64,000 nt of DNA from Bythopirellula sp. (lineage in GTDB: Bacteria; Planctomycetota; Planctomycetia; Pirellulales; Lacipirellulaceae): assembly GCA_028285205.1 (NCBI GenBank), contig JANQQA010000371.1, positions 1 through 64,000 of the forward strand. The letters are read 5' to 3'. Each line of letters starts with the position of its first letter. The stretch's first letter is position 1. The notes beneath the pieces are model-generated. The model was given only the letters and a program-made list of their open reading frames with translations. It was not told the origin of the DNA and did no database searches. Positions 11,666-52,822 of the stretch are shown here, piece by piece. The position numbers were made by a program, and so were the translations under genes.

Positions 11666-11681
11666 GGCAATCGGTGTGCCA
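11666..11681 (-). promoter_or_regulatory. Sigma-54 promoter of the usp-CBS-usp-usp group
   Basis: Minus strand reads TGGCAC-ACCGA-TTGC-C: an exact -24 TGGCAC and -12 TTGC at the canonical 5-base gap. It is 80 bases from the UAS-like palindrome at 11761. Confidence 0.85.
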
Positions 11682-11760
11682 ATCGAAATTGCGAACAGCG
11701 TGCGTAAGGAAGCAGAATCTCCTGCCAATCCAGCCTGTCTCGTTTCATCCACCGGGGGCA

Positions 11761-11778
11761 CTGAGCTATTTCGCACAC
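11761..11778. promoter_or_regulatory. Putative activator site (UAS) shared by usp and cytidylate-kinase-like promoters
   Basis: CTGAGCTATTTCGCACAC matches 13 of 18 positions of the palindrome TTGTGCGAATTCGCACAA, with the right half-site almost intact. It lies between two diverging sigma-54 promoters, 80 bases from the left -24 box and 107 from the right one. Apart from these sites I see no convincing gene in 11586-11985. Confidence 0.6.
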
Positions 11779-11884
11779 CTCGGAGGCGCGCCGCGCCGTG
11801 AGTCGTAACCGAAGTTAATCACCGTTGGTGTGGGATCGCATGGTATTGGTAGGAACGTGCTGGGTATTGCTGGCGGACCATCAT

Positions 11885-11900
11885 CGGCACGGCAGTTGCT
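11885..11900 (+). promoter_or_regulatory. Sigma-54 promoter of the cytidylate-kinase-like gene
   Basis: CGGCAC-GGCAG-TTGC-T matches the -24/-12 consensus except for the first base. It ends 85 bases before the ATG at 11986. Confidence 0.85.
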
Positions 11901-11985
11901 CAATAATTGCTTGGGTTTGAACCGTGATTGCCCGCGATCGTGAGACGGCGGTAGATGCGGTGTTCAATTCAGCGGAGGACGACCG

Positions 11986-12693
11986 ATGACAACCTATGCT
12001 TCGACGCGTGGTGTCGCGCTAGAGCGCGCCTACAAGCACTGGAGAGAACGCGGGGCGTTGCTGGAATTACCCAGCACACAGCCGACCGCACCACCGCTGA
12101 CGATTGCCATCAGTCGCGAAACCGGCGCGGGCGGTACTTCCATCGCCGAAGAAATCGCGGCAGAACTAGGCTGGCCGCTCTACGATCGCGAACTTGTAGC
12201 GCAGATTGCCGAAGATACTGGAGTCCACACGGAACTGCTGGAAAAATTGGATGAAAAGAAGCCGAATTGGCTGACGGATTGCCTAGAGGGGTTTTCGGAT
12301 CATAAGAACATTAGCGGCGCTGCGTTCGCAATCCGGCTACGCAAGATTCTGTTTGCGCTCTATTGCCATGGAAATTGCGTGATTGTCGGACGTGGAGCGG
12401 CACAGATTCTGCCCCCGAAGCATACGCTCCGCGTGCGCTTCGTCGCTCCCAAGAACGCCCGCATCGCACGAATGTCGGAGCTTCTCGACCCAGGTGTAGA
12501 CGTTGAGCAGGCAGTTCTCCAGTCGGACAAAGATCGCGAATCGTTCGTGAAGAGCTATTTCTTCAAGGATCCCAATTCACATACGGGGTATGATCTGACG
12601 CTCGACACTTCGCGATTCTCGCACGCTGGTTGTGCAGAGATCATTCTAAGTGCCATCAAAGCACATCATGAAAACGCCAAAGTTAGTTCCTGA
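11986..12693 (+). CDS. Cytidylate-kinase-like family protein
   Basis: 235 residues. LTIAISRETGAGGTSIAEEI (about 38-57) is the P-loop region of the cytidylate-kinase-like family, where the usual GxxGxGKS is altered; AAELGWPLYDRELVAQIAED follows. Members of this family are often found beside stress genes, but their substrate is not established, and this is not the housekeeping Cmk. The start is backed by GGAGG seven bases upstream. A sigma-54 promoter precedes it, and the sensor kinase gene follows 159 bases later on the same strand, so the two may share a transcript. Confidence 0.85.
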   Translation: MTTYASTRGVALERAYKHWRERGALLELPSTQPTAPPLTIAISRETGAGGTSIAEEIAAELGWPLYDRELVAQIAEDTGVHTELLEKLDEKKPNWLTDCLEGFSDHKNISGAAFAIRLRKILFALYCHGNCVIVGRGAAQILPPKHTLRVRFVAPKNARIARMSELLDPGVDVEQAVLQSDKDRESFVKSYFFKDPNSHTGYDLTLDTSRFSHAGCAEIILSAIKAHHENAKVSS

Positions 12694-12852
12694 GATCCAA
12701 CGACTTACTTCGATCTCACTTGCGACTCGCGGCAATCTGCCCAAGAATAGACTCATTATCGTTGTTCCATGGTGAAGCGGGAAATAACTGAACTGGCCCG
12801 CCAGAGTTGAAGCTGCGATCACGACGAGTCGGGAAGCCGGGTCGGAGGGTAT

Positions 12853-14679
12853 ATGACCGGTAACAGCCGGGAATCGCTTGAATCACTCGAGCGAGAATTT
12901 GGTCGAATTCTTGAACAGTCGCTGGACGAACTCTTCATCTACGATGCCCAATCGCTCGAATTCGTCCAAGTGAACCGTGGGGCGCGAGAGAACCTGGGTT
13001 ACTCATTAGCGGAACTTCGTAAACTGACCCCGGTCGACATCGAGCCCGAGTTTTCTCGGAGCACATTCGAGGCCTTGGTCCTCCCACTGCGTGAGGGAAC
13101 TGAGAAGTTGCTATGCTACAACACAGCCCACCAGCGCAAGGATGGGTCGCACTATCAGGTCGAAGCGCGTCTGCAATTAGCCACATTTCACGGCACTCCG
13201 GTATTTATCGCGAGCGTGCGCGATACGACGGAACGTCTGCAGGCCGAGGAAGAACTGCGCGTCCGCGATCGTGCGATCGAATCGGTGGGGGTGGGGGTCG
13301 TCATCACCGATGCCACCGACCCCAATATGCCGATCGTCTACTGCAATCATGCCTTCGAACAAATCACAGGCTACCATAAGCGGGAAGTGATCGGTCGCAA
13401 TTGTCGATTTCTCCAGCAAGATGATCGCAATCAAGAAGCGCGCCACGCAATTCGCGAATCCGTTCAACAAGGTCGCAAGTGTCAGACGCTGATCCGAAAT
13501 TATCGCAAGGATGGCAAGCTGTTTTGGAATAAGCTGACCATCTCGCCGGTGAAGGACCAAGATGGATCGATTACGCATTTTGTCGGCCTAACCGACGATG
13601 TGACGGCGCGGATCGAAGCAGAAGACGATAAGCGGGACCGCGAGGTACGACTGGCGGCAATTCTCGACACGGCCGTGGAAGCAATTATCACGATCGATGA
13701 ACGTGGTGTTTGCGAGGCGTTCAACATTGCCGCCGAGCAGATGTTTGGTTACTCGGCCGACGAAGTCATCGGCAAGAATATCTCCCTGCTGATGCCTTCG
13801 CCCTATCGCGAAGAGCACGACGGGTACATCGCCACCTATCTGGAGACACGGGTCAAGAAAATCATAGGCGTGGGACGAGAGGTCGTCGGACGACGCAAAG
13901 ACGGCACCGAGTTTCCCATCCATTTGGCGGTGAGCGAAGTGCGACTGAAGGATCGACTTCTGTTTACCGGATTCGTACAAGACATCAGCCAACGCAAAGC
14001 CGATCAGCAGCGGCTCGTGCAGGCAGAACGTCTGGCAGTGCTAGGCGAGGCGATGGCCAGGCTGGCTCACGAGGCGAGGAATTCTCTGCAGCGCATTCAG
14101 ATTGCGGTGGAAACTGCACGTATCTGTTGCACCTCGAATCAAGCATTGGATTCGCAGCTCGACTCAATTGAGAATGCCACCGAGGGCTTAGATGCGTTGC
14201 TGGAAGAGCTTCGCAACTATGCCGCGCCGATGAGCCTCGAGAAGACCGAATGCTCACTGGTGAACATCTGGCGATCCGCATGGCAGGCCATTGAGAGTGC
14301 GCGTGAAGGCCGAGAAACTAAGTTGGTGGAAGTCGTTCCAGACGAAGACGCCCGCGTGACAGCAGACCCGTTCCGACTGGGGCAGTTGTTTCGCAATATG
14401 TTTGAGAATTCGGTTGCTGCGTGTGACGATCCGGTGGTGGTCGCGATTTCCGTATCTCATGATGAGGAAAATTGGACCATTAAGCTCCGAGACAATGGTC
14501 CAGGGCTGACCAGTGAGCAGAAGCAGCGTATATTTGAGCCGTTCTTCACCACAAAAACCAAAGGAACTGGGCTAGGCATGGCGATCGCGCGTCGTATCGT
14601 TGAAGCTCATGGCGGTTCTGTAAGCGTGGGCGATTCGCGCTTCCGCGGAGCGGAATTCATCATTACGCTCCCTTCCTAG
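12853..14679 (+). CDS. PAS-LOV-PAS(FixL-type) sensor histidine kinase
   Basis: 608 residues, no membrane segments, so cytoplasmic. Domains: PAS1 (about 15-130); PAS2 (about 138-255) of LOV type with GRNCRFLQ at 181-188; PAS3 (about 265-380); phosphoacceptor helix with LAHEARN (His406); ATPase with N515, DNGPGL (547-552) and GTGLGMAIA (571-579). In PAS2, Cys184, Arg185, Gln188, Arg201, Asn216 and Asn226 sit at the same spacings as the flavin contacts of Avena LOV2, but the signalling Gln is Thr247. PAS3 resembles the FixL heme domain: EEHDGYIATY supplies His322 and IIGVGRE supplies Arg342, the same 20-residue interval as His200 and Arg220 of Bradyrhizobium FixL. GGAGG precedes the ATG. The partner is probably the activator at 15272-16630 (inference from proximity). 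Confidence 0.92.
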   Translation: MTGNSRESLESLEREFGRILEQSLDELFIYDAQSLEFVQVNRGARENLGYSLAELRKLTPVDIEPEFSRSTFEALVLPLREGTEKLLCYNTAHQRKDGSHYQVEARLQLATFHGTPVFIASVRDTTERLQAEEELRVRDRAIESVGVGVVITDATDPNMPIVYCNHAFEQITGYHKREVIGRNCRFLQQDDRNQEARHAIRESVQQGRKCQTLIRNYRKDGKLFWNKLTISPVKDQDGSITHFVGLTDDVTARIEAEDDKRDREVRLAAILDTAVEAIITIDERGVCEAFNIAAEQMFGYSADEVIGKNISLLMPSPYREEHDGYIATYLETRVKKIIGVGREVVGRRKDGTEFPIHLAVSEVRLKDRLLFTGFVQDISQRKADQQRLVQAERLAVLGEAMARLAHEARNSLQRIQIAVETARICCTSNQALDSQLDSIENATEGLDALLEELRNYAAPMSLEKTECSLVNIWRSAWQAIESAREGRETKLVEVVPDEDARVTADPFRLGQLFRNMFENSVAACDDPVVVAISVSHDEENWTIKLRDNGPGLTSEQKQRIFEPFFTTKTKGTGLGMAIARRIVEAHGGSVSVGDSRFRGAEFIITLPS

Positions 14680-14706
14680 GCATCTTTGCAAGTCCACCGC
14701 CTGGTG

Positions 14707-14723: not shown

Positions 14724-14741
14724 GTGTGCCAACTCGCACAG
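14724..14741. promoter_or_regulatory. Putative UAS of the BON gene
   Basis: GTGTGCCAACTCGCACAG matches 14 of 18 positions of TTGTGCGAATTCGCACAA. It is 126 bases upstream of the sigma-54 promoter at 14868. Confidence 0.6.
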
Positions 14742-14867: not shown

Positions 14868-14883
14868 TGGCACGACAGTTGCA
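14868..14883 (+). promoter_or_regulatory. Sigma-54 promoter of the BON gene
   Basis: TGGCAC-GACAG-TTGC-A is a perfect match to the sigma-54 consensus, 84 bases before the proposed ATG at 14967. Confidence 0.88.
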
Positions 14884-14966
14884 ATCGGTATCACTTGGCT
14901 GAGGTGGGCAGCAGATCGTAGACGTTGCCGGTGTCAAAGGAGTTGTCCGTATCGGGGGCACTAGTG

Positions 14967-15245
14967 ATGGCCATGGGTGTTATGAAAAACGACTCACGCA
15001 GCAACGAAGCAAGTCGTAAGGATAGCAGTCGAGACTCGCCCAGTTGTCCAGTTACCGATGCCCTGCGCAGCAGCCGCTATACTGGGCTGACGCGTGTGCA
15101 ATGCGAGTTTCGAGCAGGGCAAGCAACTTTGCAGGGTGAGGTGAGCAGCTTCTACCTGAAGCAGCTCGCTCAGGAGATCGCCAAAAAGGTGCAAGGGGTC
15201 AAGGTGGTCGAAAACAGGCTGACCGTAAGTCTCGCAAAGCCGTGA
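14967..15245 (+). CDS. Small BON-domain protein
   Basis: 92 residues from ATG 14967, chosen because GGGGG lies 8 bases upstream; an in-frame TTG at 14925 would add 14 residues, and ATGs at 14973 and 14982 are alternatives. The first half is Ser/Asp-rich. The second half (VQCEFRAGQATLQGEVSSFY then KVQGVKVVENRLTV) is one BON domain, a fold thought to bind membranes or phospholipid and common in osmotic-stress proteins. There is no signal peptide, so it is probably cytoplasmic or peripheral. It lies between the kinase and activator genes under its own sigma-54 promoter, so it is a likely direct target. Confidence 0.78.
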   Translation: MAMGVMKNDSRSNEASRKDSSRDSPSCPVTDALRSSRYTGLTRVQCEFRAGQATLQGEVSSFYLKQLAQEIAKKVQGVKVVENRLTVSLAKP

Positions 15246-15271: not shown

Positions 15272-16630
15272 TCAGGCGACCCCTTCGATTTCACTCGGGG
15301 TGATGCTGTATTTTTCGATCAATCGATACAGACTGCGCCTGCTGACGCCCAGCACCTTGGCGGAGCGGAGCTTGTTGCCGTTTTCTTGCTGGAGTGCCTG
15401 TACCACACGAGCGCGGGTCAACGTCGCCAGATCGATATCTGTATCGGGCAGGGCATGATTCTTTGATTTGAGGCTCCCGAGTACTTCGGGGGGAAGATTC
15501 TCTTTTCGCAAGACTTCGTCCTCAGCCAGCATCTTGGCCCGCTCGATGGCGTTGATCAGCTGCCTCACATTCCCGGGCCAAGAGTACTTGTTAATGATCT
15601 CCCGACACTCCGGCTCGAATTCCCACCCTCCGCCCGCGCAATGGTCAGCGAGCAACAGACGGTCTCCATCGCGGGCACGCAGCGGCGGGAGCAGGATCGT
15701 CATGATATTGATGCGGTAAAAGAGATCTTCGCGAAATCTTTTCGCCTCTACCTCCTGCGCCAAATCGCGGTTAGTGGCAGCTAACAGGCGGACGTCGACG
15801 CGACGTTCTTTCAGAGAGCCGACGCGACGGAGCGAGCCATCTTCCAAAACTCTTAGTAGTTTGGGCTGCAGCATCGGCGAGAGTTCGCCGATTTCGTCGA
15901 CGAACAGGGTCCCGCCGTCTGCCACTTCAAAAAGTCCAGGCTTTGCTGTGCTGGCGCCCGTAAATGCGCCCTTTTCATATCCGAATAACTCGCTTTCCAG
16001 CAGCTGTTCAGGAAGCGCCGCGCAGTTAACGACGACCAACGGCTTATCGGCGCGGGCGCTAGACTCGTGGATCGCACGTGCGACCAGCTCCTTGCCTGTG
16101 CCACTTTCTCCCTGGATCAAAATCGGTTTGTCGCTCGGTGCTGATCGATCAATCAACCGGAAGACTTCCTTCATCGCCTGTGAATCACCGATCATGTGAT
16201 GCGTCGGGGCGTGGTGCCTGACCAACTCGCGGAGATGGCGGTTTTCCTTCCGCAGTTTTCCAGCTTCAGCTGCTCTCTGAACAACGGCAGCTAGTTGCTT
16301 CATCCGAATGGGTTTGGCCAGAAAATCGTAGGCGCCAAGCTTCATGGCCTCGACGGCTTTCTCAATCGTGCCTTGGCCGGTCAACAGCACAACTTCCGTT
16401 TCGGGGCTTTCCTTCTTGATCTTTTCCAGCAGGTCAATTCCAGACATGCCCGGCATCACCATATCCAGAATTGCCACCCCAAACTCGCGGCTTTGCATCC
16501 GCTCGTAGGCCGACTCGCCCGAGTCGCCATCTTCGACGGCGTGACCAAGTTGGCGGAAGTAATTGACAAGACCATTGCGCAAGTCGTTGTCATCGTCGAC
16601 AATCAACAAATCCAGTTTTGAGTCCGACAT
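15272..16630 (-). CDS. NtrC-type sigma-54-dependent response regulator
   Basis: 452 residues from ATG 16630; an in-frame extension to 16678 is unlike a receiver start. Receiver domain 1-120 with phosphoacceptor Asp56 (ILDMVMPG) and Lys106; AAA activator domain with Walker A GESGTGKE (174-181), the sigma-54 contact loop GAFTGA (221-226) and Walker B TLFVDEIGEL; C-terminal Fis-type helix-turn-helix (about 419-440, RSAKVLGVSRRSLYRLIEKY). It binds DNA upstream of sigma-54 promoters and opens them using ATP. Its gene has its own exact sigma-54 promoter at 16800-16815, so it is probably self-activated. It is convergent with the BON gene. It is the best candidate to bind the palindromes listed here. 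Confidence 0.96.
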   Translation of the reverse strand: MSDSKLDLLIVDDDNDLRNGLVNYFRQLGHAVEDGDSGESAYERMQSREFGVAILDMVMPGMSGIDLLEKIKKESPETEVVLLTGQGTIEKAVEAMKLGAYDFLAKPIRMKQLAAVVQRAAEAGKLRKENRHLRELVRHHAPTHHMIGDSQAMKEVFRLIDRSAPSDKPILIQGESGTGKELVARAIHESSARADKPLVVVNCAALPEQLLESELFGYEKGAFTGASTAKPGLFEVADGGTLFVDEIGELSPMLQPKLLRVLEDGSLRRVGSLKERRVDVRLLAATNRDLAQEVEAKRFREDLFYRINIMTILLPPLRARDGDRLLLADHCAGGGWEFEPECREIINKYSWPGNVRQLINAIERAKMLAEDEVLRKENLPPEVLGSLKSKNHALPDTDIDLATLTRARVVQALQQENGNKLRSAKVLGVSRRSLYRLIEKYSITPSEIEGVA

Positions 16631-16799: not shown

Positions 16800-16815
16800 T
16801 GCAACTTGAGTGCCA
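16800..16815 (-). promoter_or_regulatory. Sigma-54 promoter of the activator gene
   Basis: Minus strand reads TGGCAC-TCAAG-TTGC-A, a perfect consensus match. It predicts a leader of roughly 160 bases before ATG 16630 and implies positive autoregulation. Confidence 0.85.
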
Positions 16816-17009: not shown

Positions 17010-17027
17010 TTGTGCGAATTCGCACAA
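17010..17027. promoter_or_regulatory. Perfect UAS palindrome between activator and hemerythrin genes
   Basis: TTGTGCGAATTCGCACAA is an 18-base perfect palindrome. It sits 78 bases upstream of the hemerythrin -24 box and 195 bases upstream of the activator gene's -24 box, so one site could serve both directions. An identical copy occurs at 52718-52735. Confidence 0.85.
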
Positions 17028-17104: not shown

Positions 17105-17120
17105 TGGCACAGGCATTGCT
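17105..17120 (+). promoter_or_regulatory. Sigma-54 promoter of the hemerythrin gene
   Basis: TGGCAC-AGGCA-TTGC-T, exact -24 and -12 boxes, ending 55 bases before ATG 17175. Confidence 0.9.
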
Positions 17121-17174: not shown

Positions 17175-17621
17175 ATGGTTGATCACGACTACGATCTTGC
17201 CTTTGCGGAGCTGATGAAGACTGAACATGACGATCTGTTCCGGACTATTGATCAAGTGAAGGCAGCACTTCATTCAGACAGCTTCCAACGGCACAGCGTT
17301 AGCGACAAGTTTGTTCAACTATCGGAATTGATCGAGTCGCATTTCCGACACGAGGAGGCCGGTGGGTACATGCAAGAGGCAGTGGCGCGCGCTCCTCACC
17401 TCCGCAAGCGAGCGGCAAAGCTGCAAGAGCAACATGTCGAGCTGCAGGAAGAAATCGACAAGTTGCAACTCCTCGTGCACTCGGGAGTCGAATCAGCTTC
17501 TTGGCTGGAGAGAATCATCACCGATTTCGAGTGTTTCGCGATGCGGCTCCGGGAACACGAAGACAACGAGGCTCGGCTTATCCAAGAAGCTTACAACCAA
17601 AACATCGGCACCACAGAATAA
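17175..17621 (+). CDS. Hemerythrin-like (HHE) protein
   Basis: 148 residues predicted to be all helical. Candidate di-iron ligands are spaced as in HHE proteins: His18 (KTEHDDLF), His56/His59 with Glu60 (ESHFRHEE), His87 (EQHVEL) and His128 with Glu129 (REHEDNEA). Hemerythrin-like proteins bind oxygen or nitric oxide through the di-iron centre and act in oxygen sensing, storage or detoxification. A perfect palindrome and a perfect sigma-54 promoter precede it, which makes it one of the clearest members of the regulon. It is divergent from the activator gene. Confidence 0.88.
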   Translation: MVDHDYDLAFAELMKTEHDDLFRTIDQVKAALHSDSFQRHSVSDKFVQLSELIESHFRHEEAGGYMQEAVARAPHLRKRAAKLQEQHVELQEEIDKLQLLVHSGVESASWLERIITDFECFAMRLREHEDNEARLIQEAYNQNIGTTE

Positions 17622-35741: not shown

Positions 35742-35757
35742 TGGCACATCAATTGCA
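35742..35757 (+). promoter_or_regulatory. Sigma-54 promoter of fbp
   Basis: TGGCAC-ATCAA-TTGC-A is a perfect consensus match, ending 51 bases before the fbp ATG. Confidence 0.9.
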
Positions 35758-38865: not shown

Positions 38866-38886
38866 CGGATTTCGAGTGTCAGAATT

Positions 38887-41665: not shown

Positions 41666-44600
41666 CTATACTCCTGACTCTTCGAATCCCTCAGAGAGTT
41701 CACGTTCGACACCGGCCATCTGTTCGTAGTAGTGCCATTGATCGTCGATGTCTCGCTGTGCTAGATCGAACAAGTACTCGGCGTGCTCGGGGTTGGTGCG
41801 GGCGAGCATCGCGAATCGGGCCTCTTTCATGGCGAGCTCTTTAAACGGTTTCGTTGGTTTGCGGCAATCGAGCCGGAATGGCCGTTTCCCGGCATGTGCC
41901 TCGCGTGGGTCGTAGCGATACAACGGCCAGAAGCCCGTCTGCACGATCTCCTTTTGATGCGTCATCGAGGTGCTCATGTCGATGCCGTGTGCGATGCAGT
42001 GGCTGTAAGCGAGAATCAATGACGGACCCGGATACGATTCCGCCTCGCTAAAGACGCGAACCGTTTGAGCTGGATTTGACCCCATTGCCACTTGAGCCAC
42101 GTACACATTGCCGTACGAGACGGCGAGCATGCCGAGGTCTTTCTTGCGGGCGGGTTTGCCCCCGGCCGCAAACTTCGCGACGGCTGCCCGAGGAGTTGCC
42201 TTTGACATTTGGCCGCCGGTATTTGAGTAGACGCCCGTATCCAGCACGAGAATATTTACGTCGCGACCCGTGGTCAGTACGTGGTCTAATCCACCGAATC
42301 CGATGTCGTAGGCCCATCCATCGCCGCCGACAATCCAGACGCTCCGATTCACCAGCACATCAGCGATTGCAGACAGCGTGCCGGCTGCCTGGGTTGCAGA
42401 GCCATCCGCACGAGCTAACCGCGAACGCAGCTCGGCGATACGCTCCCGCTGACGCTGGATCGAGGCCTCGTCGGAGACACCTCCCTGCAATAGCTCCTCC
42501 ACCAGCGGCTCACCGACTTCTGTGGCCAAGTCACGCAACAAGCTCTCGGCGTAATCTCGCTTCTGGTCGAGCGCCAGTCGCAGACCCAGCCCAAATTCGG
42601 CGTTGTCTTCAAACAGCGAGTTAATCCACGTAGGACCGCGCCCGTCTTCGTTCGTGCTCCACGGAGTCGTGGGAAGGTTGCCACCGTAGATGGATGAGCA
42701 ACCAGTGGCATTGGCAATCAGCGTGCGGTCACCGAAGAGTTGACTCATCAGTTTTAGGTACGGAGTTTCGCCGCATCCAGCGCACGCACCTGAGAACTCA
42801 AACAGCGGCTGCAGTAGCTGCGTGCCCTTCACCGTATCAGTCTTTGCCAGAGTGCGGTCGAGTTCAGGCAAATCTAGGAAGAAGTCAAAATTGGCTCGCT
42901 CGCGCTCAAGATGCTCGAGCTTCGGCTCCATATTGATCGCCTTGTGCTTAGCCACTTCTTTGCTCTTCGCAGGGCAAACATCTACGCAGACACCGCAGCC
43001 CGTGCAATCGTCTGGAGCAACCTGAATAGTCATCTGGTAGTCGGGCAGATCTTTGCCCTTCCACGACCGAGATAAGAAGCCGTTTGGAGCATCGGCACAC
43101 GATGCGGGCAGATAAGTCTTGGAGCGGATCGCAGCATGTGGGCAGACGAGCGCGCAGAGACCGCACTCGATGCAGATATCCGGATCCCAGATTGGGATTT
43201 CCTGGGCGATACTCCGTTTTTCAATGCAGGCTGTTCCGGTTGGAAACGACCCATCAACAGGCAAGGCACTGACCGGCAATAAATCGCCGCGCCCATCCAG
43301 CAGCATTGAAGTCACGCGTTTGACGAAGTCGTTGTCGTGACTTGCAACTGGCGGAAGGCGGTGTGTTTTGCTCGAAACTTTCGCAGGCACTTCGACTTCG
43401 TGAAGTGCGTCGAGCGCCGCGTCCACGGCTGCGAAGTTGCGCCGTAGAATGGCCTCGCCGCGATTGCCATAGGTTTTGCGAATGGCTGACTTAATGTGTT
43501 CAATCGCTTCTTCGCGCGGTAGCACACCACATAGCGCGAAGAAACAAGTCTGCATGATCGTATTGATTCGCGTTCCCATTTCGGCCTGCCGAGCCACATG
43601 AAGGGCGTCAATCACGTAGAACTTGAGTTCTTTCTCGATTATCTGCTCCTGTATCTCAGCAGGAAGGTGGTCCCATACCTCCGAGGGACCGTAGGTGCTG
43701 TTGAGCAGAAAAGTCGCGCCAGGCTGAGCAATCTTAAGTACATCGATGCGCTCAAGAAAATTGAACTGATGGCAGGCGACAAAATTCGCGCGCTCGATGA
43801 GATAGCTGGAGTTGATTGGTCGGGGGCTAAATCGAAGGTGCGAAACTGTGACCGAGCCCGCCTTCTTCGAATCGTAGACGAAGTAACCCTGCGAATACAT
43901 CGGTGTGTTTTCGCCGATGATCTTCACGGAGTTTTTGCTTGCACCGACGGTGCCGTCGCTTCCCAAGCCGTAGAACACCGCACGCGTGACGTCGTCACCC
44001 TCCGTTGAGAATTCTGGATCCCATTTGAGGCTGAGGTGCGTCACGTCATCGATAATACCAATCGTGAAATGTCGTTGGGGCTCGTCCGCGTCCAATTCTT
44101 GGTACACGCGCGCCGCCATCGCTGGAGTAAACTCCTTGGAGGAGAGCCCATAGCGTCCGCCGATCAGGGCCTCGCACTGATGCAGACGGTTGCCCTCGGC
44201 TAGTGCCGTGAGCACATCTTGGTACAGCGGCTCGCCAATTGCACCAGGTTCCTTCGTGCGATCGAGTGCAGCGATTCGCTTGGCGGTCTTCGGAAGCGTG
44301 GCGAGGAGTGCTGCCGCATCGAAGGGACGGTAGAGTCGGACTTTTATCAGGCCAACTCTCTCTCCCTCAGCAAGCAGCCGCTCCACGGCCTCTTCAACGG
44401 CGCCCGCCCCAGACCCCATCATGACGATCACGCGCTCTGCATCCGGTGCGCCAACGTAATCGAACAGGCTGTACTGACGCCCCGAAAGCTTGGCAAAACT
44501 ATCCATGGTTTGCTGAACGATGCCGGGGACATCCAAGTAAAACGGATTCGCAGCCTCTCTTGCTTGGAAGAATACGTCTGGATTCTGGGCTGTTCCGCGC

Positions 44601-45259
44601 AAGACGGGGCGATCAGGATCCATGGCTCGATCCCGATGTTCCTGCACCAATTGCTCGTCGATCATCTCTCGAATTTGATCCGGAGAGATTAGCGAAATCT
44701 TGTTGACCTCGTGGGAGGTACGGAAGCCGTCGAAGAAATGTACAAAGGGTACACGTGACTTTAGCGTGGCGGCATGGGAGATCATCGCTAAGTCATGCGC
44801 CTCTTGCACAGAACCGGCAGCGAGCATCGCCCACCCGGCTTGTCGCACGGCCATCACATCGCTGTGGTCTCCGAAGATGGAGAGCGCATGCGTGGCGATA
44901 CTACGAGCGGCGATATGAAAAACAGCCGGCAGGAGTTCGCCAGCAATCTTGTACATATTCGGGATCATTAGCAACAATCCCTGAGATGCGGTGAAAGTGG
45001 TCGTCAACGCGCCAGCCTGAAGTGAGCCATGAATCGCGCCAGCAGCTCCAGCTTCACTCTGCATTTCGATAACATCCGGAACGGTTCCGAAGATGTTATT
45101 GCGCGATTGTGACGACCACTTGTCAGACAATTCGCCCATGGGCGACGCTGGCGTGATGGGATAAATCGCGATTACTTCATTCGTCTGATGGGCGATGTAG
45201 GCCGCAGCCTCATTGCCGTCGATCGTAACAAACTTAGCCGACTCCACGTTTCGACCCAT
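41666..45259 (-). CDS. nifJ: Pyruvate:ferredoxin (flavodoxin) oxidoreductase
   Basis: 1197 residues, the full single-chain length. Domains in order: pyrimidine-binding (IAIYPITPASPMGELSDKWS), transketolase C-like, gamma part, a two-[4Fe-4S] ferredoxin module (CIECGLCALVCPH and CTGCGVCVDVCPAKS), and a ThDP domain (ACAGCGETPYLKLMSQLFGD, GGDGWAYDIGFGGLDHVLTT). It converts pyruvate and CoA to acetyl-CoA, CO2 and reduced ferredoxin, an oxygen-sensitive route used when oxygen is low. ATG 45259 has AAAGG directly against it, so GTG 45247 is an alternative start. Downstream is the DHOD-like gene. The gap to the phasin gene (45405) has a possible sigma-70 promoter. Confidence 0.96.
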   Translation of the reverse strand: MGRNVESAKFVTIDGNEAAAYIAHQTNEVIAIYPITPASPMGELSDKWSSQSRNNIFGTVPDVIEMQSEAGAAGAIHGSLQAGALTTTFTASQGLLLMIPNMYKIAGELLPAVFHIAARSIATHALSIFGDHSDVMAVRQAGWAMLAAGSVQEAHDLAMISHAATLKSRVPFVHFFDGFRTSHEVNKISLISPDQIREMIDEQLVQEHRDRAMDPDRPVLRGTAQNPDVFFQAREAANPFYLDVPGIVQQTMDSFAKLSGRQYSLFDYVGAPDAERVIVMMGSGAGAVEEAVERLLAEGERVGLIKVRLYRPFDAAALLATLPKTAKRIAALDRTKEPGAIGEPLYQDVLTALAEGNRLHQCEALIGGRYGLSSKEFTPAMAARVYQELDADEPQRHFTIGIIDDVTHLSLKWDPEFSTEGDDVTRAVFYGLGSDGTVGASKNSVKIIGENTPMYSQGYFVYDSKKAGSVTVSHLRFSPRPINSSYLIERANFVACHQFNFLERIDVLKIAQPGATFLLNSTYGPSEVWDHLPAEIQEQIIEKELKFYVIDALHVARQAEMGTRINTIMQTCFFALCGVLPREEAIEHIKSAIRKTYGNRGEAILRRNFAAVDAALDALHEVEVPAKVSSKTHRLPPVASHDNDFVKRVTSMLLDGRGDLLPVSALPVDGSFPTGTACIEKRSIAQEIPIWDPDICIECGLCALVCPHAAIRSKTYLPASCADAPNGFLSRSWKGKDLPDYQMTIQVAPDDCTGCGVCVDVCPAKSKEVAKHKAINMEPKLEHLERERANFDFFLDLPELDRTLAKTDTVKGTQLLQPLFEFSGACAGCGETPYLKLMSQLFGDRTLIANATGCSSIYGGNLPTTPWSTNEDGRGPTWINSLFEDNAEFGLGLRLALDQKRDYAESLLRDLATEVGEPLVEELLQGGVSDEASIQRQRERIAELRSRLARADGSATQAAGTLSAIADVLVNRSVWIVGGDGWAYDIGFGGLDHVLTTGRDVNILVLDTGVYSNTGGQMSKATPRAAVAKFAAGGKPARKKDLGMLAVSYGNVYVAQVAMGSNPAQTVRVFSEAESYPGPSLILAYSHCIAHGIDMSTSMTHQKEIVQTGFWPLYRYDPREAHAGKRPFRLDCRKPTKPFKELAMKEARFAMLARTNPEHAEYLFDLAQRDIDDQWHYYEQMAGVERELSEGFEESGV

Positions 45260-46572: not shown

Positions 46573-46579
46573 CCGGCCG

Positions 46580-47803
46580 TTAGGCAGGTGGGTGCCATCC
46601 CGCGTCTGCCCAAAGCTCGCCGCTTACCGCCGAGTTGGAAATCATGAAGCAAACCGCGTCTGCAATCTCTTCCGGGCGAATGAGTCGGCGAAGCTGCGTG
46701 TAGGGCAGTACGTTTTTCTTGAGGAAGTCCTCGCCCAAGGCTTGTGCCATCGGTGTGTCTGTGAATCCCGGGTGAATCGTCGCACACCGCACGCCGTGAA
46801 AAATGGCTTCCTTCATCAGCGTAGCTGCCGCGCCTTCTAGGCCCGCCTTTGCCACCGCGTAGGAGATCTGTCCTTTGTTGCCTTGCGAAGAAACTGAGCC
46901 AAGAAATACGATGGCACCTTCAATCTCTTCTTCCGGTCCCCACCGCTTTAGACCGCGTCGTGTTCGATCTTCAGCAATCCGGGCTACCATCTCGATGGCC
47001 CAGTAGATCGGAGCAATCAGATTGATTTCAATCACCTTTTGGAAGTTCTCCAGAGGATAGAGAATCGCTTTACCGGTTTCCTTGTCTACGCGTACCGATA
47101 GGGCGTCGCGCGTAATCCCGGCAGCCGGAACGCAGATCGTAATCAGACCATGACGGGCATACGCATCGTCGAATACTTGTGCCCGGAACACCGGGTCACT
47201 TGCGTCACCGACATGAACTTCGGCAACATCGCGCTTCTCCGAGTCATTTATTTCTTCCGCCAGTTGGGCGACGTCATCGTTAAGGTCGACCAAGAGGACC
47301 GCCTTGGCTCCGCGTTTGGCCAGATCGCGAGCAACAGCGGCACCAATTCCGCTGGCCGCGCCCGTGACAACGGCAACCTTCTGAGCAATATTCATCGCGC
47401 CTCCTGTTTCTTGCGTGCTGTGTACTTCGACCGCCGTCTGATCAGACCGTCTTGAAACAGAGATCGAATTCGCCTGAGATGGGTTAGATTTGGTTGCAAC
47501 TGCAACCACATCCTTCTGTTGAGGTTTGAAGCCACTGATCGAATCGAGAGTCGTATCGAGTTGCTTGTCCCACAGGTCGAGCTGATTCTGAGCGATGCCC
47601 ATCAGCGCATCGGCCCAGTTCTGGTGAAGTTCTTGCAGCGGGCCAAACCAGTCTTGGCGAGTCGAAACCAAGTTCGGCCAGAATCGAGCCCAACTGTACA
47701 CGAGCTCCTGCTGAAGCTTCAGATTGGCGCCGGCGGTCTGCCGCATGTTTCCTAGAAACTCGTTGTAGGCACTTGCACTTCTGGATGCATCTTGAGCGAC
47801 CAT
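46580..47803 (-). CDS. Phasin-SDR fusion (acetoacetyl-CoA-reductase-like), with internal start
   Basis: 407 residues. Residues 1-90 are phasin-like and similar to 45405 (FLGNMRQTAGANLKLQQELV then WARFWPNLVSTRQDWFGPLQ). Residues 137-407 are a short-chain dehydrogenase: nucleotide motif VAVVTGAASGIGAAVARDL (TGxxxGIG), GSVSSQGNKGQISYAVAK (Ser and YxxxK), PGFTDTPMA. It would tether an NAD(P)H-linked oxidoreductase to PHA granules. An internal ATG at 47395 has AGGAGG close upstream, so a free 271-residue SDR may also be made. GGGAG supports the 47803 start. A sigma-54 promoter lies 51 bases upstream. Confidence 0.88.
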   Translation of the reverse strand: MVAQDASRSASAYNEFLGNMRQTAGANLKLQQELVYSWARFWPNLVSTRQDWFGPLQELHQNWADALMGIAQNQLDLWDKQLDTTLDSISGFKPQQKDVVAVATKSNPSQANSISVSRRSDQTAVEVHSTQETGGAMNIAQKVAVVTGAASGIGAAVARDLAKRGAKAVLLVDLNDDVAQLAEEINDSEKRDVAEVHVGDASDPVFRAQVFDDAYARHGLITICVPAAGITRDALSVRVDKETGKAILYPLENFQKVIEINLIAPIYWAIEMVARIAEDRTRRGLKRWGPEEEIEGAIVFLGSVSSQGNKGQISYAVAKAGLEGAAATLMKEAIFHGVRCATIHPGFTDTPMAQALGEDFLKKNVLPYTQLRRLIRPEEIADAVCFMISNSAVSGELWADAGWHPPA

Positions 47804-47853: not shown

Positions 47854-47869
47854 AGCAAAGTTCGTGCCT
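47854..47869 (-). promoter_or_regulatory. Sigma-54 promoter of the phasin-SDR gene
   Basis: Minus strand AGGCAC-GAACT-TTGC-T, exact GGCAC and TTGC with 5-base gap. Confidence 0.8.
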
Positions 47870-48034: not shown

Positions 48035-48052
48035 ATCTGCGATTTCGCACAG
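48035..48052. promoter_or_regulatory. Putative UAS of the phasin-SDR gene
   Basis: ATCTGCGATTTCGCACAG matches 14 of 18 positions of the palindrome, 166 bases from the -24 box. Confidence 0.6.
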
Positions 48053-48091: not shown

Positions 48092-49522
48092 CTACCATAC
48101 ACCTGTACTTAGGTATTCGTGAATCGATCGCGCAGCAGTGCGTCCAGCACCCATGGCAAGGATTACTGTCGCGGATCCGCTGACGATATCCCCTCCGGCG
48201 AATACTCCTCGCTTACTTGTGCGCAGTGTTCCCTCGTCGGCCAGGATGTACCCCCATTTGTTGGTTTTCAGGTCCGCGGTTGAGGACTGGACTAGTGGGT
48301 TAGCACCCGTCCCAACCGCGACGACCGCGACGTCGCAGGGCAAGATGAATTCAGAGTTTTGAATTGGGATCGGTCGCCTGCGACCAGATTCGTCGGCGTC
48401 TCCCAGTTCCATTTTGACCAGCTTGACGCCCGATAAATATCCCTGATCGTCACCAACAAACTCGACCGGACTATGAAGATTCAAAAACTGAACGCCTTCG
48501 TCCTTGGCATGATGGACCTCTTCCGCTCGTGCGGGCATTTCTTGTTCGCTACGACGATAGATTATCGACGCGGTCATCGCACCTAGTCTCAAAGCCGAGC
48601 GAACCGCATCCATCGCTGTGTTGCCGCCACCAACGACGACGACGTGGCGGCCGCGGCATTCATAGATCGGTGTATCGCTACTGTCGGGCTCGTAGGCCCG
48701 CATGAGGTTTACGCGGGTGAGAAACTCATTTGCAGAGTAGACTCCGCCTAAGTGCTCGCCGGGAATGTTCATAAATTTCGGTAGGCCGGCACCTGTCGCG
48801 ACAAAGACAGCATCGAAACCTTCTTCACCGAACAACTCATCCATGGTGATCGTCTTGCCGACCACAACGTTCGTCTGAAACTCGACGCCCATGCTGCGAA
48901 GGTTGTCAACTTCGCCGCGAACAATATCTTTCGGAAGCCTAAACTCTGGAATTCCGTAGAGGAGCACACCACCAATTTCATGAAGCGCCTCCATCACCAT
49001 GACTTTGTGACCTTTCAGCACTAGATCTCCAGCGCAGCTCAATCCGGCGGGACCGCTGCCCACGATGGCTACCTTTTTGCCTGTGGGCGGAGCGTTCTCA
49101 GGCAATCCAACCTGGCCGGTTGCGCGTTCGTAATCAGCCACGAATCGCTCAAGATGGCCAATTGCTACGGAGCTAAAACGATTGGACAGAACGCACGCAC
49201 CTTCACATTGATTCTCTTGTGGACATACGCGTCCCGTGACGGCTGGAAGAACGTTGTCTTCGCGGATCTTCGCCGCCGCTTTCAAGTACTCGCCTTGCAG
49301 GACGAAGTCAACGAATTCTCGTACTTGCACACCGACGGGGCAGCCGTGCATGCACTTGGGATCTGAGCAGGAAAGGCAGCGTTGTGCCTCCTTCTCCGCC
49401 ACTGCGGACTCAAACCCTCGGTTGACTTCAGCAAAGTTCTGCGCTCGCTCGCAAGCAAGTTGCTCCGGCATCGCCTGACGAGGGATCTTGGTTCGCTCTT
49501 TCGGGGGGAGACGTTCAGCCAT
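48092..49522 (-). CDS. NfnB/SudA-type flavoprotein (GltD-like NAD(P)H oxidoreductase)
   Basis: 476 residues from ATG 49522 (MAERLPPKERTKIPRQAMPE, a typical start); an in-frame opening to 49609 would overlap the upstream gene. An N-terminal Fe-S domain (CLSCSDPKCMHGCPVG and CPQENQCEGACVLS) and two Rossmann folds follow (KVAIVGSGPAGLSCAGDLVL; HVVVVGGGNTAMDAVRSALR) plus GVFAGGDIVSGSATVILAMG. This fold is shared by GltD, NfnB and SudA. Its partner gene 49536 lies directly upstream, which argues for an Nfn/Sud complex (NADH-dependent reduced ferredoxin:NADP oxidoreductase) rather than glutamate synthase, whose large subunit is absent. Second gene of a sigma-54 operon. Confidence 0.88.
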   Translation of the reverse strand: MAERLPPKERTKIPRQAMPEQLACERAQNFAEVNRGFESAVAEKEAQRCLSCSDPKCMHGCPVGVQVREFVDFVLQGEYLKAAAKIREDNVLPAVTGRVCPQENQCEGACVLSNRFSSVAIGHLERFVADYERATGQVGLPENAPPTGKKVAIVGSGPAGLSCAGDLVLKGHKVMVMEALHEIGGVLLYGIPEFRLPKDIVRGEVDNLRSMGVEFQTNVVVGKTITMDELFGEEGFDAVFVATGAGLPKFMNIPGEHLGGVYSANEFLTRVNLMRAYEPDSSDTPIYECRGRHVVVVGGGNTAMDAVRSALRLGAMTASIIYRRSEQEMPARAEEVHHAKDEGVQFLNLHSPVEFVGDDQGYLSGVKLVKMELGDADESGRRRPIPIQNSEFILPCDVAVVAVGTGANPLVQSSTADLKTNKWGYILADEGTLRTSKRGVFAGGDIVSGSATVILAMGAGRTAARSIHEYLSTGVW

Positions 49523-49535
49523 GGGATTTCCGGTC

Positions 49536-50444
49536 CTAGGATGCTGCTTGTGGTCTGCGCGGGCCAACTTCGGGATGTTGTTGACGCAAGTGGCAATGGT
49601 TGTTGTCATCTACTGAAGAAGAGTCCGAATGGAACTCGTCAAGTGCCTTCTGCTCTCGCTGTCGGTACATCTGATTTCGTTGGGAGAGCACCGTGAAGTC
49701 GACGTCATGCGCGTCAAACTCGGGGCCGTCCACGCAGGCGAACTTGCTTTGACCTCCGATCAAGACACGACAGCCGCCACACATGCCGGTGCCGTCGACC
49801 ATGATCGGATTGAGGCTGACGATGGTCTTGATCTGATGTGGCCGAGTTAGACTGGCAACGGCATTCATCATGGGGATCGGGCCGATAGCGAGAACGTGAT
49901 CGACGTCACAGCCCTGGTCGATTAGTTCCTGTAGTTTTTGCGTGACGAAGCCCTGCTCGCCAGCACTCCCATCGTCGGTGACAATGAACAGCTGATCCGT
50001 TGTCTGCTGCATTTCCTCAGCGAGTATCAGCAACTCCTTGGTTCTCGCGCCGACGATTGCAATCACTTTGTTTCCGCTATTTTTCATGGCGACTGCCGTC
50101 GGATAAGCGATCGCCGTTCCAACTCCTCCTCCAATGACAACAACCGTCCCGAACTCCCGAATGTCTGAGGGCTCTCCCAAAGGCCCGACGACGTCCTGGA
50201 TCTCATCTCCGGCTTCCAGACTGTTGATGAGCTTCGTCGTTTTGCCGATGCCCTGAACGACGATTGTGATCGTCCCAGCATCAATGTCAGAATCGGCAAT
50301 CGTCAGTGGAATGCGTTCGCCGTCTGAGTGAGCCCTCACAATGACGAACTGCCCGGCTTTCCGTTTGGACGCGATGCGGGGCGCCTCGATTCGAAATAGC
50401 TTGATGTCCGGTGCGAGAAACCTTGCTTCTGTGATCGAATACAT
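49536..50444 (-). CDS. NfnA/SudB-type FAD/[2Fe-2S] NAD-binding subunit
   Basis: About 302 residues from ATG 50444 (MYSITEARFLAPDIKLFRIE; AGGA 9 bases upstream), rather than ATG 50468, which lacks a ribosome site. A flavin-binding barrel (VIVRAHSDGERIPLTIADSD), an NAD-binding fold (VVVIGGGVGTAIAYPTAVAM) and a C-terminal iron-sulfur motif GTGMCGGCRVLIGGQSKFAC. This is the PyrK-like subunit of Nfn/Sud complexes. It starts the operon with 48092, 13 bases apart, and has a sigma-54 promoter and near-perfect UAS upstream. With PFOR it could convert reduced ferredoxin and NADH to NADPH for PHA synthesis. Confidence 0.88.
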   Translation of the reverse strand: MYSITEARFLAPDIKLFRIEAPRIASKRKAGQFVIVRAHSDGERIPLTIADSDIDAGTITIVVQGIGKTTKLINSLEAGDEIQDVVGPLGEPSDIREFGTVVVIGGGVGTAIAYPTAVAMKNSGNKVIAIVGARTKELLILAEEMQQTTDQLFIVTDDGSAGEQGFVTQKLQELIDQGCDVDHVLAIGPIPMMNAVASLTRPHQIKTIVSLNPIMVDGTGMCGGCRVLIGGQSKFACVDGPEFDAHDVDFTVLSQRNQMYRQREQKALDEFHSDSSSVDDNNHCHLRQQHPEVGPRRPQAAS

Positions 50445-50574: not shown

Positions 50575-50590
50575 AGCAAAAAATGTGCCG
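50575..50590 (-). promoter_or_regulatory. Sigma-54 promoter of the Nfn/Sud operon
   Basis: Minus strand CGGCAC-ATTTT-TTGC-T, exact GGCAC and TTGC. It is about 130 bases before ATG 50444. Confidence 0.85.
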
Positions 50591-50686
50591 CTGTAAACAG
50601 GTTCGCGATCTCATACGAACTCGCCACATAAAGTTCATTGCAGATAGATTTGTCGCACGTCAACGCCCGTGTCCACGCGACAGGCT

Positions 50687-50704
50687 AGGTGCGAATTCGC
50701 ACAC
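50687..50704. promoter_or_regulatory. UAS of the Nfn/Sud operon
   Basis: AGGTGCGAATTCGCACAC matches 15 of 18 positions; the inner 14 bases GTGCGAATTCGCAC are a perfect palindrome. It is 96 bases from the -24 box. The rest of 50445-50784 holds no gene. Confidence 0.75.
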
Positions 50705-50784
50705 ATCGATAAAAGTAGGTCAGCAAGCCATCCACTTAGGTAGGAGGTTGGCGGCTGGATCTAGGTCTCTGCGGCGCCAAAACC

Positions 50785-51279
50785 TTATACGTCCGCATAG
50801 AGCGAAACGAAGTCCAATGAGGTGATGATACCCAAGAGTCGACATTCATTGCTGGTCACAATGACGCGGTGGATCTTCTCACGGAGCATTTCGTCAGCGA
50901 CCTCCTTCACGGACGTGTCTTCGCGAACCGAGAAAAGCTCTCGCGCCATGACTTCCTCTACCGTCACTTCTCCAAACTGCTCCAAGGCAAACGAAGACAC
51001 ACGCACGTGCTCCCACTTTCCACTGTCCGCATCATAGTGCAACGCCATGTCGTCATTCACTTCGGAGGCATATTCCGCATGCTCTTGCTCGAAGTTGAGG
51101 ATGTCCGTGGCAGTAATGACACCAATGCACTTGCCGGCGGAATTGACGACCGGCAACCCTGTGACGTGGTTCTCCGTCATGAGACTCATTGCATCTTGCA
51201 GCGTGTCACGCGCGTAAACTACGATCACGTCGCGTTGCATGATATCTGCGGCCGTTTTACATCTGGTTTGGTCTGCCAT
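50785..51279 (-). CDS. Protein with two CBS domains
   Basis: 164 residues from ATG 51279 (GGAG nine bases upstream); an opening to 51366 is unlike the family. CBS pair: AADIMQRDVIVVYARDTLQD, HVTGLPVVNSAGKCIGVITA, VEEVMARELFSVREDTSVKE and IHRVIVTSNECRLLGIITSL. Similar in layout to the CBS protein at 10479. It probably binds AMP/ATP-type nucleotides and reports energy state to the pathway around it. A weak sigma-54-like site (51554-51568) lies 275 bases upstream. Confidence 0.9.
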   Translation of the reverse strand: MADQTRCKTAADIMQRDVIVVYARDTLQDAMSLMTENHVTGLPVVNSAGKCIGVITATDILNFEQEHAEYASEVNDDMALHYDADSGKWEHVRVSSFALEQFGEVTVEEVMARELFSVREDTSVKEVADEMLREKIHRVIVTSNECRLLGIITSLDFVSLYADV

Positions 51280-52074
51280 GGTTAAAGTCTCCTGCAAAGA
51301 TAAGGGTTCGATTGCATTGCTCGAGTGATCGCAATAGGCTCCTCTGGGCATTAAGGTTCTCGTCACTCGAATTCAGTAGTAGGGGCGGTCCATCGCACCT
51401 AGCGATCTCGGCAATGACCCACGTGTGGACTCGTAATCTGTTGCACATCACTTGCAATGGCCTGTGAAAGAGTGCGACTTTTAGCCTTTTGGACATGCTT
51501 TGAAACAAAAAACGTCGTGTGAACAATGAGAATCTCATCACGACAGACAGCGTGCGAAACCCGTGCCAATTCGTCATGACTGCGATTCACGCATCAATTT
51601 CAGATGGAAATCTGCCAGCGGCTAGTTTGTGGCGGATCTCCGAATTGAGCGGAGAGTGCGTCGGTACTTCAATCGTCAGCAATACACGTGATTCCGCGAC
51701 TTACGGATAACCCGGGATGCTAATCGCTGTGAGCACAGCGTTGTGATTGCTCTAGAAATGCGTGAAGTGTGCCTGCGATCTGCTGCGGTTCTATAATCTC
51801 GACTGAAGTGTCAACGACGTGCAGGAATCCGAGTAATGACCGGCACGATAGCCACCCGCGGTTGTATCTTAGGAGGTATCTGCGCGCAGCGCGCGTATGC
51901 GCGAAAGCAATTTACTAGCACTCATCATGCTCACCCACCGCACAGTGTTCATCAGCGAGAAAAACAATTCGCGACGACCGCGCGTCCGCGTCGAATACTT
52001 GACAAACACCACGAATCTCCGAGAATAATCGCAGCATTGAGGCTATTTATGGCGGAACACAAAGGTGATTAGCT
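51280..52074. other. Divergent intergenic region between CBS and cNMP-binding genes
   Basis: Contains a weak minus-strand sigma-54-like site TGGCAC-GGGTT-TCGC (51554-51568), a palindrome CGCTGTG-AG-CACAGCG near 51726-51741, and the sigma-70 promoter of the cNMP gene. Short open frames (for example from 51836) are basic and low in complexity and are not called. Confidence 0.45.
51999..52028 (+). promoter_or_regulatory. Sigma-70 promoter of the cNMP-binding gene
   Basis: TTGACA at 51999-52004 and GAATAA at 52023-52028 with an 18-base gap. AAGGTG precedes the ATG at 52075 by 8 bases. Confidence 0.45.
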
Positions 52075-52566
52075 ATGTCTGACCAGGCAATTTTGGAAAC
52101 GCTCAAGGAAGTCGCTTTTTTTGAAGGTATGGACGAAAGCGACTTGTCTCGGCTTGCAGGCATTGCGAAGACGGTCGAGTTTCCTGCCAATGCAGATATT
52201 TTCAAGGAATTCGATCTAGCAAAAGACGTCTTTGTTATCATTTCTGGCGAAGTCTCGCTGGTGTCGTGTACGCCCGCCTCTGGCTGTCGCAAGTTGATGA
52301 CGGTGCAAGCGGGTGAAATGCTCGGTTGGTCGCCACTAGTTGGGCGACCTCGTCTGCACGATACAGCCCATACATTGTCGCCCATCAACGCCATTGTTTT
52401 CGACGGCCAGCAAATCCTCACATTCTGTGAAGAGCACCCTAAGTTTGGCTTCCAGTTCATGCATCGAGCAGCCAAAGTGCTTGCTGAACGTCTCAGCGCG
52501 ACGCGATTGCAGCTGCTTGATATCTGCGGTGTGCGATTGCCGGAAGTGCCAGTCGATACTGACTGA
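52075..52566 (+). CDS. Stand-alone cyclic-nucleotide-binding-domain protein
   Basis: 163 residues, essentially only a CRP-like sensor domain: LKEVAFFEGMDESDLSRLAG, KDVFVIISGEVSLVSCTPAS, VQAGEMLGWSPLVGRPRLHD, then the long helix CEEHPKFGFQFMHRAAKVLA. There is no helix-turn-helix after it (the chain ends LPEVPVDTD), so it is not a DNA-binding Crp/Fnr regulator. It may bind a nucleotide or other ligand and act on a partner. It lies just upstream of the perfect UAS of the pha operon. Confidence 0.82.
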   Translation: MSDQAILETLKEVAFFEGMDESDLSRLAGIAKTVEFPANADIFKEFDLAKDVFVIISGEVSLVSCTPASGCRKLMTVQAGEMLGWSPLVGRPRLHDTAHTLSPINAIVFDGQQILTFCEEHPKFGFQFMHRAAKVLAERLSATRLQLLDICGVRLPEVPVDTD

Positions 52567-52717
52567 CTAGCACGAAATCGATTGTGCGGTACCCCCGTGC
52601 ATGGAACTGCGGGTGTGGCGACCGCCATTGAACCAGACGAAAATGACTCTCGCTCAACGGAGCAGTCCGGATTGGTTCGCGTTACCACTCCTCTAATGTG
52701 CGTTTAACAGCCCTAAC

Positions 52718-52735
52718 TTGTGCGAATTCGCACAA
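52718..52735. promoter_or_regulatory. Perfect UAS palindrome of the pha/methylmalonyl-CoA operon
   Basis: TTGTGCGAATTCGCACAA, identical to 17010-17027 over all 18 bases, with the same preceding C. It lies 71 bases upstream of the -24 box. A further half-site CGCACA is at about 52745. Confidence 0.85.
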
Positions 52736-52806
52736 TCAGCGCCGCGTATCGCACAGAGTTATTGCGCGAACTCATACTTTTCCGTCTGCAGTGGCTGCTG
52801 CGCCGC

Positions 52807-52822
52807 TGGCACGTTACGTGCT
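52807..52822 (+). promoter_or_regulatory. Sigma-54 promoter of the pha operon
   Basis: TGGCAC-GTTAC-GTGC-T: perfect -24 box and a -12 box with one change (GTGC for TTGC), 58 bases before ATG 52880. Confidence 0.75.

Follow-up and report, generated by a model that had tools for sequence, protein, structure and literature searches.

What do genes for universal stress proteins, a hemerythrin-domain protein, an NAD(P)H:ferredoxin oxidoreductase and polyhydroxyalkanoate (PHA) synthesis have in common, that they should stand behind the same kind of promoter in one stretch of planctomycete DNA? The stretch (the window) comprises positions 1 to 64,000 of contig JANQQA010000371.1 from a Bythopirellula sp. 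(Lacipirellulaceae, Pirellulales) and is C160:1-64000 in our labelling of the genome (G000; 7.89 Mb in 373 contigs, C labels). An original prediction held that sigma-54 promoters, a palindromic enhancer and an activator encoded among them form one regulon. Our analysis points to an oxygen-responsive sigma-54 regulon, to which we assign a probability of about 0.8, and the idea of a single regulon draws support at the level of sequence from eight of nine promoters in the window, six of six orthologue loci, six of eight domain-exchanged loci and a site count of 38 versus 7 in the activator's clade.

The -24/-12 core GGCAC-N5-TTGC had been read exactly in front of eight gene starts. All eight copies are found there, against a mean of 0.66 and a largest count of 3 in 100 dinucleotide shuffles of the window. 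Exact matches precede a universal stress protein gene (usp, 11067..11585, minus strand, Pfam Usp; site 11667..11680, minus), a gene for a cytidylate-kinase-like protein (11986..12693, plus, Pfam Cytidylate_kin2; site 11886..11899, plus), a BON-domain gene (14925..15245, plus, Pfam, start possibly 14967; site 14869..14882, plus), the activator gene (15272..16630, minus; site 16801..16814, minus), a hemerythrin-domain gene (17175..17621, plus, Pfam; site 17106..17119, plus), fbp (site 35743..35756, plus), a gene for a short-chain dehydrogenase/reductase (SDR) with an N-terminal extension (46580..47803, minus, Pfam; site 47855..47868, minus) and an NfnA/NfnB-type NAD(P)H:ferredoxin oxidoreductase pair (48092..50444, minus, Pfam and NCBIfam; site 50576..50589, minus). 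The ninth site, TGGCACGTTACGTGC (52808..52821, plus), shows the one changed base that had been described and lies before genes for phaA/bktB, a phaB-type reductase, a PhaR-like subunit and a class III-type phaC (52880..56348, plus, NCBIfam). Genes were called with an in-house, simple codon-usage caller, which missed BON, shortened fbp and left some starts uncertain. Across the genome as a whole, TGGCAC-N5-TTGC shows no enrichment (34 sites versus 28 for the reversed pattern), and the window holds 5 of the 34; the dense clustering is therefore local, as is the sigma-54 signal, which arises in combination with the palindrome.

The palindrome, GTGCGA-N2-TCGCAC, is the site at which we infer that the activator binds. 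Rescoring gave the same matches as before (18, 18, 15, 14, 14, 13 and 13 of 18), and a match of 13/18 is at noise level, five more of them lying in the window away from sigma-54 promoters. We also scored the 14 half-site bases for the best match 40 to 260 bp upstream of each sigma-54 site, in comparison with 20,000 intergenic positions drawn from the window at a distance of over 600 bp from the promoters. In the order usp, cytidylate-kinase-like, BON, activator, hemerythrin, fbp, SDR, Nfn and phaA, the scores were 12, 12, 13, 14, 14, 10, 13, 13 and 14; the null reached 12/14 or better with a frequency of 0.0004 and 10/14 or better with a frequency of 0.086. The claim that every promoter has an upstream palindrome thus stands for eight of the nine (each p ≤ 0.0004 against intergenic positions) and falls for fbp (10/14, p = 0.09), which lacks a convincing enhancer and which we dropped from the regulon as unproven. 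Two palindromes each serve a divergent pair, as proposed: 11762..11777 (12/14) lies between usp (minus) and the cytidylate-kinase-like gene (plus), and the perfect 17011..17026 (14/14) between the activator (minus) and hemerythrin (plus) genes. The others belong to BON (14725..14740, 13/14), the SDR fusion gene (48036..48051, 13/14), the Nfn-type pair (50688..50703, 13/14) and the PHA genes (52719..52734, a perfect 14/14). The centres of the palindromes are 82 to 204 bp from the eight promoters, which is the normal range for activator sites. No strong second palindrome was found within 120 bp of the window sites (best, 10/14 at 52763).

Which proteins could read this site and sense a signal? 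The activator contains the Pfam domains Response_reg, Sigma54_activat and HTH_8, with GAFTGA at residue 221 and the Walker A sequence GESGTGKE. This bears out the predicted sigma-54 activator with GAFTGA and a Fis-type helix-turn-helix (HTH), adds the receiver and Walker A, and, with one rpoN (PF04552) match in the genome, gives all the features of an NtrC-type bacterial enhancer-binding protein. The activator is probably autoregulated, because a perfect palindrome lies 204 bp upstream of its own sigma-54 promoter. Downstream of the cytidylate-kinase-like gene, and outside the earlier discussion, lies a histidine kinase gene (12853..14679, plus; Pfam PAS and HATPase_c). The last of its PAS domains is of the FixL haem type: the best seven PDB sequences are all FixL haem domains (E-values of 2.4e−32 to 7.8e−30). 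It aligns the proximal His of EHDxY and the Arg of IIGxGR, the FG-loop residue; we take both to be haem-binding residues of FixL-type PAS domains, and both are present in all six kinases examined, including this one. A domain search of the kinase up to E = 1 gave no Protoglobin match. From its sequence, the kinase is the probable oxygen sensor for the activator. The link to oxygen, originally guessed from gene content, is now backed by this kinase and by the protoglobin sensors of relatives described below.

Is the association peculiar to this locus? In the window's own genome, TGTGCGAATTCGCACA occurs with up to three mismatches at 41 places, compared with 14 for the reversed pattern, and with up to two mismatches at 12, of which 5 are inside the window. 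Two of the seven outside have a sigma-54 site and a gene: on C3, an exact site faces a cytochrome c gene and a one-mismatch site points in the opposite direction, and on C326, a one-mismatch site precedes the gene for an isocitrate lyase-malate synthase protein of 1408 amino acids. Four of the 27 three-mismatch places outside the window were inspected, and those on C71 and C259 have a one-mismatch sigma-54 site 208 to 230 bp before a gene. Palindromes on C220 and C359 fall within genes.

Relatives of the activator that match it in the whole domain plan or in the AAA+/HTH part occur across the order (G labels denote genomes and L labels loci). The palindrome, with at most two half-site mismatches, is present in 6/6 loci whose activator is 69 to 76% identical over its full length (L002 to L007) and in 6/8 loci in which only the AAA+/HTH part is alike (L020 to L027). 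The surroundings of 72 other activators (40 to 45% identity) had none in 1.11 Mb, where the reversed pattern occurred three times. For a genome-scale test we counted sites with at most one mismatch in 39 genomes, with the reversed pattern as a control. The 16 genomes from two clades that are sisters in the activator tree contain 38 sites versus 7 control matches, and the other 23 contain 25 versus 44 (Fisher's test, 3.3e−7; 3.7e−5 without G038, which has 13 control matches; 5.2e−4 without G038 and the window's genome). G014, absent from the tree and counted with the others, has an activator that shares 69% identity with the fused type in its AAA+/HTH part; moving it into the clade changes the counts to 41 versus 7 and 22 versus 44. 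Palindrome abundance tracks the activator clade. The clade sites are also more often intergenic than the controls (26/38 versus 2/18; 13/25 in the other 23 genomes) and more often coupled to a sigma-54 site with a downstream gene (14/38 versus 0/18; without the window's genome, 10/31 versus 0/18, p = 0.008), so that across the 39 genomes the palindrome is not placed at random relative to sigma-54 promoters. The 18 control regions compared are every reversed-pattern site in the family to which the window belongs (7 come from clade genomes), out of 51 in the 39 genomes, the remaining 33 belonging to other families (13 to G038). An early comparison of the family plus G031 (40 sites, 21 intergenic and 8 with sigma-54) with other families of the order (17 sites, 10 and 4) showed no difference in rate. 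The reversed pattern was adopted as the control because five of the seven genomes behind those 17 sites had activator relatives (51 to 60% identity).

The genes downstream of palindromes in relatives widen the set proposed for the window by pyruvate:ferredoxin oxidoreductase (PFOR), FocA, isocitrate lyase-malate synthase, phosphoenolpyruvate carboxykinase and CBS proteins. With a sigma-54 site we found a formate/nitrite transporter (FocA) in G007, where the palindrome is perfect, and in G017, PFOR in G019, phosphoenolpyruvate carboxykinase in G009 (the palindrome being within a short called open reading frame) and a CBS protein in G004. In G017, the region upstream of a gene that couples a universal stress domain to a type II/IV secretion ATPase (L170:3237-4904) contains an exact sigma-54 site and a palindrome. 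No sigma-54 site was recognised before other genes: isocitrate lyase-malate synthase in G004 (where a perfect palindrome lies at a distance of about 400 bp), fatty-acid desaturase in G004 (perfect palindrome) and G006, PFOR in G023 and some that fit poorly, namely, a SpoIIE-type phosphatase (G009), acyl-CoA dehydrogenase (G019) and secretion ATPases (C28 of the window's own genome; G019). Genes for usp, CBS, BON and hemerythrin proteins recur near the activator in both receiver-type and globin-fused loci. The recurrence of the same gene families in different genomes gives independent support for the regulon. The glyoxylate-cycle enzymes malate synthase and isocitrate lyase are fused in one protein in the window's genome (L036:6458-10684) and in its homologue in G004 (L143:2-2689), both with a palindrome upstream. 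The desaturase genes (L144:3199-4194 and L152:3236-4222) belong to two genomes with a globin-fused activator; fatty-acid desaturases are O2-requiring enzymes.

How is the activator controlled where the receiver is missing? In the activators of L049 to L056, about 165 N-terminal residues of other sequence replace the receiver. In all three fused activators scanned, this part is a Protoglobin domain (E-values of 4.8e−31, 6.6e−31 and 3.5e−35) whose closest solved structure is AfGcHK, and the proximal His and GAFTGA are present in all eight checked. These proteins thus combine an N-terminal sensor globin, its proximal His and an output domain, as globin-coupled sensors do. The full-length protoglobin-AAA+-HTH fusion occurs in 10 of 43 genomes of the family. 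Among 294 genomes of the phylum, with five candidates each, none was found at E ≤ 1e−110, a search that could miss a diverged fusion; the AAA+/HTH part alone reached this threshold in 9 genomes, including the window's. The eight fused-activator loci, one of which (L052) is only 5 kb long, showed no homologue to the window kinase at E ≤ 1e−5. In L058, L059, L060, L061, L068 and L070, a protoglobin kinase adjoins a full-length, receiver-type activator. In a tree of 315 AAA+/HTH columns, the fused activators and L058 form a starred clade (100/99) that is sister to the window clade (100/99), the sister relation (92/83) being unstarred; deeper branches comprise the remaining protoglobin-kinase loci and also L057, whose kinase is of the FixL type. 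A tree constrained to unite the fused activators gave p = 0.336 in the approximately unbiased (AU) test, so that their monophyly is neither shown nor rejected. The domain exchange itself is visible in the sequences, as are the parts, the association of the motifs and the conservation of the haem ligands. We consider it quite likely that the fusion in ten Pirellulales genomes is a one-protein O2 switch, that the palindrome and core genes are under FixL-type or globin kinases in sister lineages, and that haem sensors were exchanged at least twice.

We hypothesize that, when its haem loses O2, the FixL-type kinase becomes active and phosphorylates the NtrC-type activator, which would then bind GTGCGA-N2-TCGCAC about 80 to 205 bp upstream of -24/-12 promoters, loop to the sigma-54 RNA polymerase and open transcription. 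The genes switched on would be those for the activator itself, usp/CBS, BON, hemerythrin, Nfn and PHA synthesis; as respiration slows, carbon and reductant could be stored as PHA and the energy state guarded. Sister lineages would have kept the activator, the site and the core neighbours and swapped the haem sensor for a protoglobin kinase (deeper branches) or for a protoglobin fused to the activator in place of the receiver. The behaviour of FixL is the basis for a kinase that is active at low O2. The low-O2 direction is inferred from FixL, from NmpR, through which mxan_4236 is induced by hypoxia (PMC11841059), and from the anaerobic type of the targets.

Several observations weigh against this interpretation. 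The enhancer test failed at fbp. The intergenic palindromes on C28, C52 and C65 of the window's own genome have no -24/-12 site, and we did not count them as regulon members. In the deeper branches (51 to 61% identity, L008 to L019), one of 12 loci has the palindrome, inside a gene, and L058, whose HTH resembles the fused type, has no site at one mismatch or fewer in its genome (G022; 85% complete). A sigma-54 site and gene can be recognised at only 14 of the 38 clade sites, 12 of the 38 lie within called genes, and 5 of 25 sites in the other 23 genomes are sigma-54 coupled. Moreover, the site counts were already known when the clade was delimited on the tree, and the partnership of kinase and activator rests on proximity. 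Relaxed GTGCG-like palindromes at L057, L068 and L070 were considered as a deeper-branch motif and proved too inconsistent to claim; in the later locus count, the deeper group of 11 loci includes two contigs twice (L060/L066 and L061/L067).

Could the motifs mean something else? The most serious alternative, although an unlikely one, accepts the activator and the palindrome and lets the haem or PAS domains report nitric oxide, carbon monoxide, redox state or energy charge. Haem PAS domains and globins bind nitric oxide and carbon monoxide too, and the window kinase has further PAS domains; however, the best matches of the sensors, FixL and AfGcHK, are both O2 sensors, and the target genes suit oxygen limitation. 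We give distinctly less credit to the view that the palindrome belongs to another regulator, for example, of the CRP/FNR type, and the sigma-54 sites to several unrelated activators. Its TGTG-N8-CACA spacing is like that of CRP half-sites, the genome encodes dozens of other activators, and a cyclic-nucleotide-binding-domain protein is encoded in the window at 52075-52566; its homologues in L049 and L050 lie close to the activator. This protein, however, has 163 amino acids, of which only about 42 follow the binding domain, and gave no HTH match (other CRP/FNR-type genes were not searched for). Furthermore, site abundance tracks the activator clade, the distances of the sites from sigma-54 promoters are those of enhancers, and domain-exchanged activators with a closely similar HTH have the motif beside their own genes in 6/8 loci.

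That the window is just locally rich in sigma-54-like and palindromic matches without function is very improbable. The lack of genome-wide enrichment of TGGCAC-N5-TTGC and the five 13/18 palindromes away from promoters would fit chance, which is contradicted by the local motif count, the null for each promoter, the cross-genome tests and the conservation at orthologous loci. The oxygen-responsive regulon remains our preferred explanation.

The window has further features of interest. Downstream of usp, on the same strand, are a CBS gene (10479) and two more usp genes (10031 and 9164; Pfam Usp and CBS). The N-terminal extension of the SDR reductase (about 137 amino acids) has no Pfam match and reads as phasin-like. 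Among the PHA proteins, phaA/bktB scores above its NCBIfam cut-off, and the phaB-type, PhaR-like (weak) and class III-type phaC proteins score below theirs. Genes for propionyl-CoA carboxylase and methylmalonyl-CoA mutase/MeaB flank the PHA genes (36874-40419 and 58363-63756), which suggests a PHA with propionyl-CoA units. A PFOR gene (41666-45259) lies beside a dihydroorotate-dehydrogenase-like gene (40640-41659), and one or both are near the activator in several relatives; the window PFOR has no upstream palindrome among the window matches, and those of G019 and G023 do. A lamin-tail domain is joined to a calcineurin-like phosphoesterase at 27674-29518, and the adjacent gene has a PEP-CTERM match close to the threshold.

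Gene regulation in planctomycetes is poorly known, and here a predicted activator, its DNA site, a sensor and a target set are defined and can be tested in culture. If our interpretation is true, PHA storage would be tied to oxygen limitation in Pirellulales, and three arrangements of haem sensor on one conserved output would make the evolution of signalling input testable as a natural domain-swap experiment. The fused globin-AAA+ protein would allow O2 control of a sigma-54 activator to be studied in a single polypeptide.

How does the system compare with those already known? A 2004 study by Studholme and Dixon reportedly treats Pirellula activators and may hold related predictions. The closest NCBIfam equivalog model to the activator is AtoC (E-value of 2.4e−124), with the same domain plan; we rejected this identity because 415.6 bits is below the NF008469 cut-off of 714. 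As in FixL-FixJ, a FixL-type haem PAS kinase is the probable oxygen sensor; however, FixJ is a LuxR-type, non-AAA+ regulator, whereas the nearby regulator here is an NtrC-type AAA+ sigma-54 activator. The relatives' fused activators share the Protoglobin domain and its proximal His with the globin-coupled sensors AfGcHK and HemAT, whose output is a kinase or chemotaxis domain rather than an HTH-bearing sigma-54 AAA+ activator. Globin sensors have been reviewed in general (PMC3820574), and no paper on a globin-fused sigma-54 activator was among the matches listed in the open-access literature. In Planctomycetia, sigma-54 promoters are described as enriched for UspA and type II secretion system (T2SS) E-type proteins (PMC12316311), which agrees with the targets found here.

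The closest known system is NmpRSTU of Myxococcus xanthus, which, according to PMC11841059, likewise has an NtrC-like sigma-54 activator under a haem-binding sensor (NmpU, a protoglobin kinase), an inverted-repeat enhancer upstream of -24/-12 promoters, autoregulation and a regulon that includes hemerythrin, USP and CBS proteins; hypoxia induces a CBS gene, mxan_4236, through NmpR. Homologues of nmpSTU in Planctomyces were pointed out in 2018 (PMC6211767). In a search for an NmpR counterpart among 188 genomes from the phylum of a Myxococcales metagenome-assembled genome, the best match to our activator was 48% identical. The two systems differ in several respects. The NmpR site is a paired GCGCA-N5-TGCGC, mostly 14 to 15 bp apart, in contrast to the single GTGCGA-N2-TCGCAC here. 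The Nmp relay has four parts, NmpS and NmpT among them, whereas the probable direct partner here is a FixL-type kinase, or else the globin sits on the activator. The Nmp sensor is a protoglobin kinase, as in some relatives, while the window kinase has only PAS domains as sensors; and PMC11841059, in the sections consulted, does not name PHA, Nfn, PFOR or glyoxylate genes as Nmp targets.

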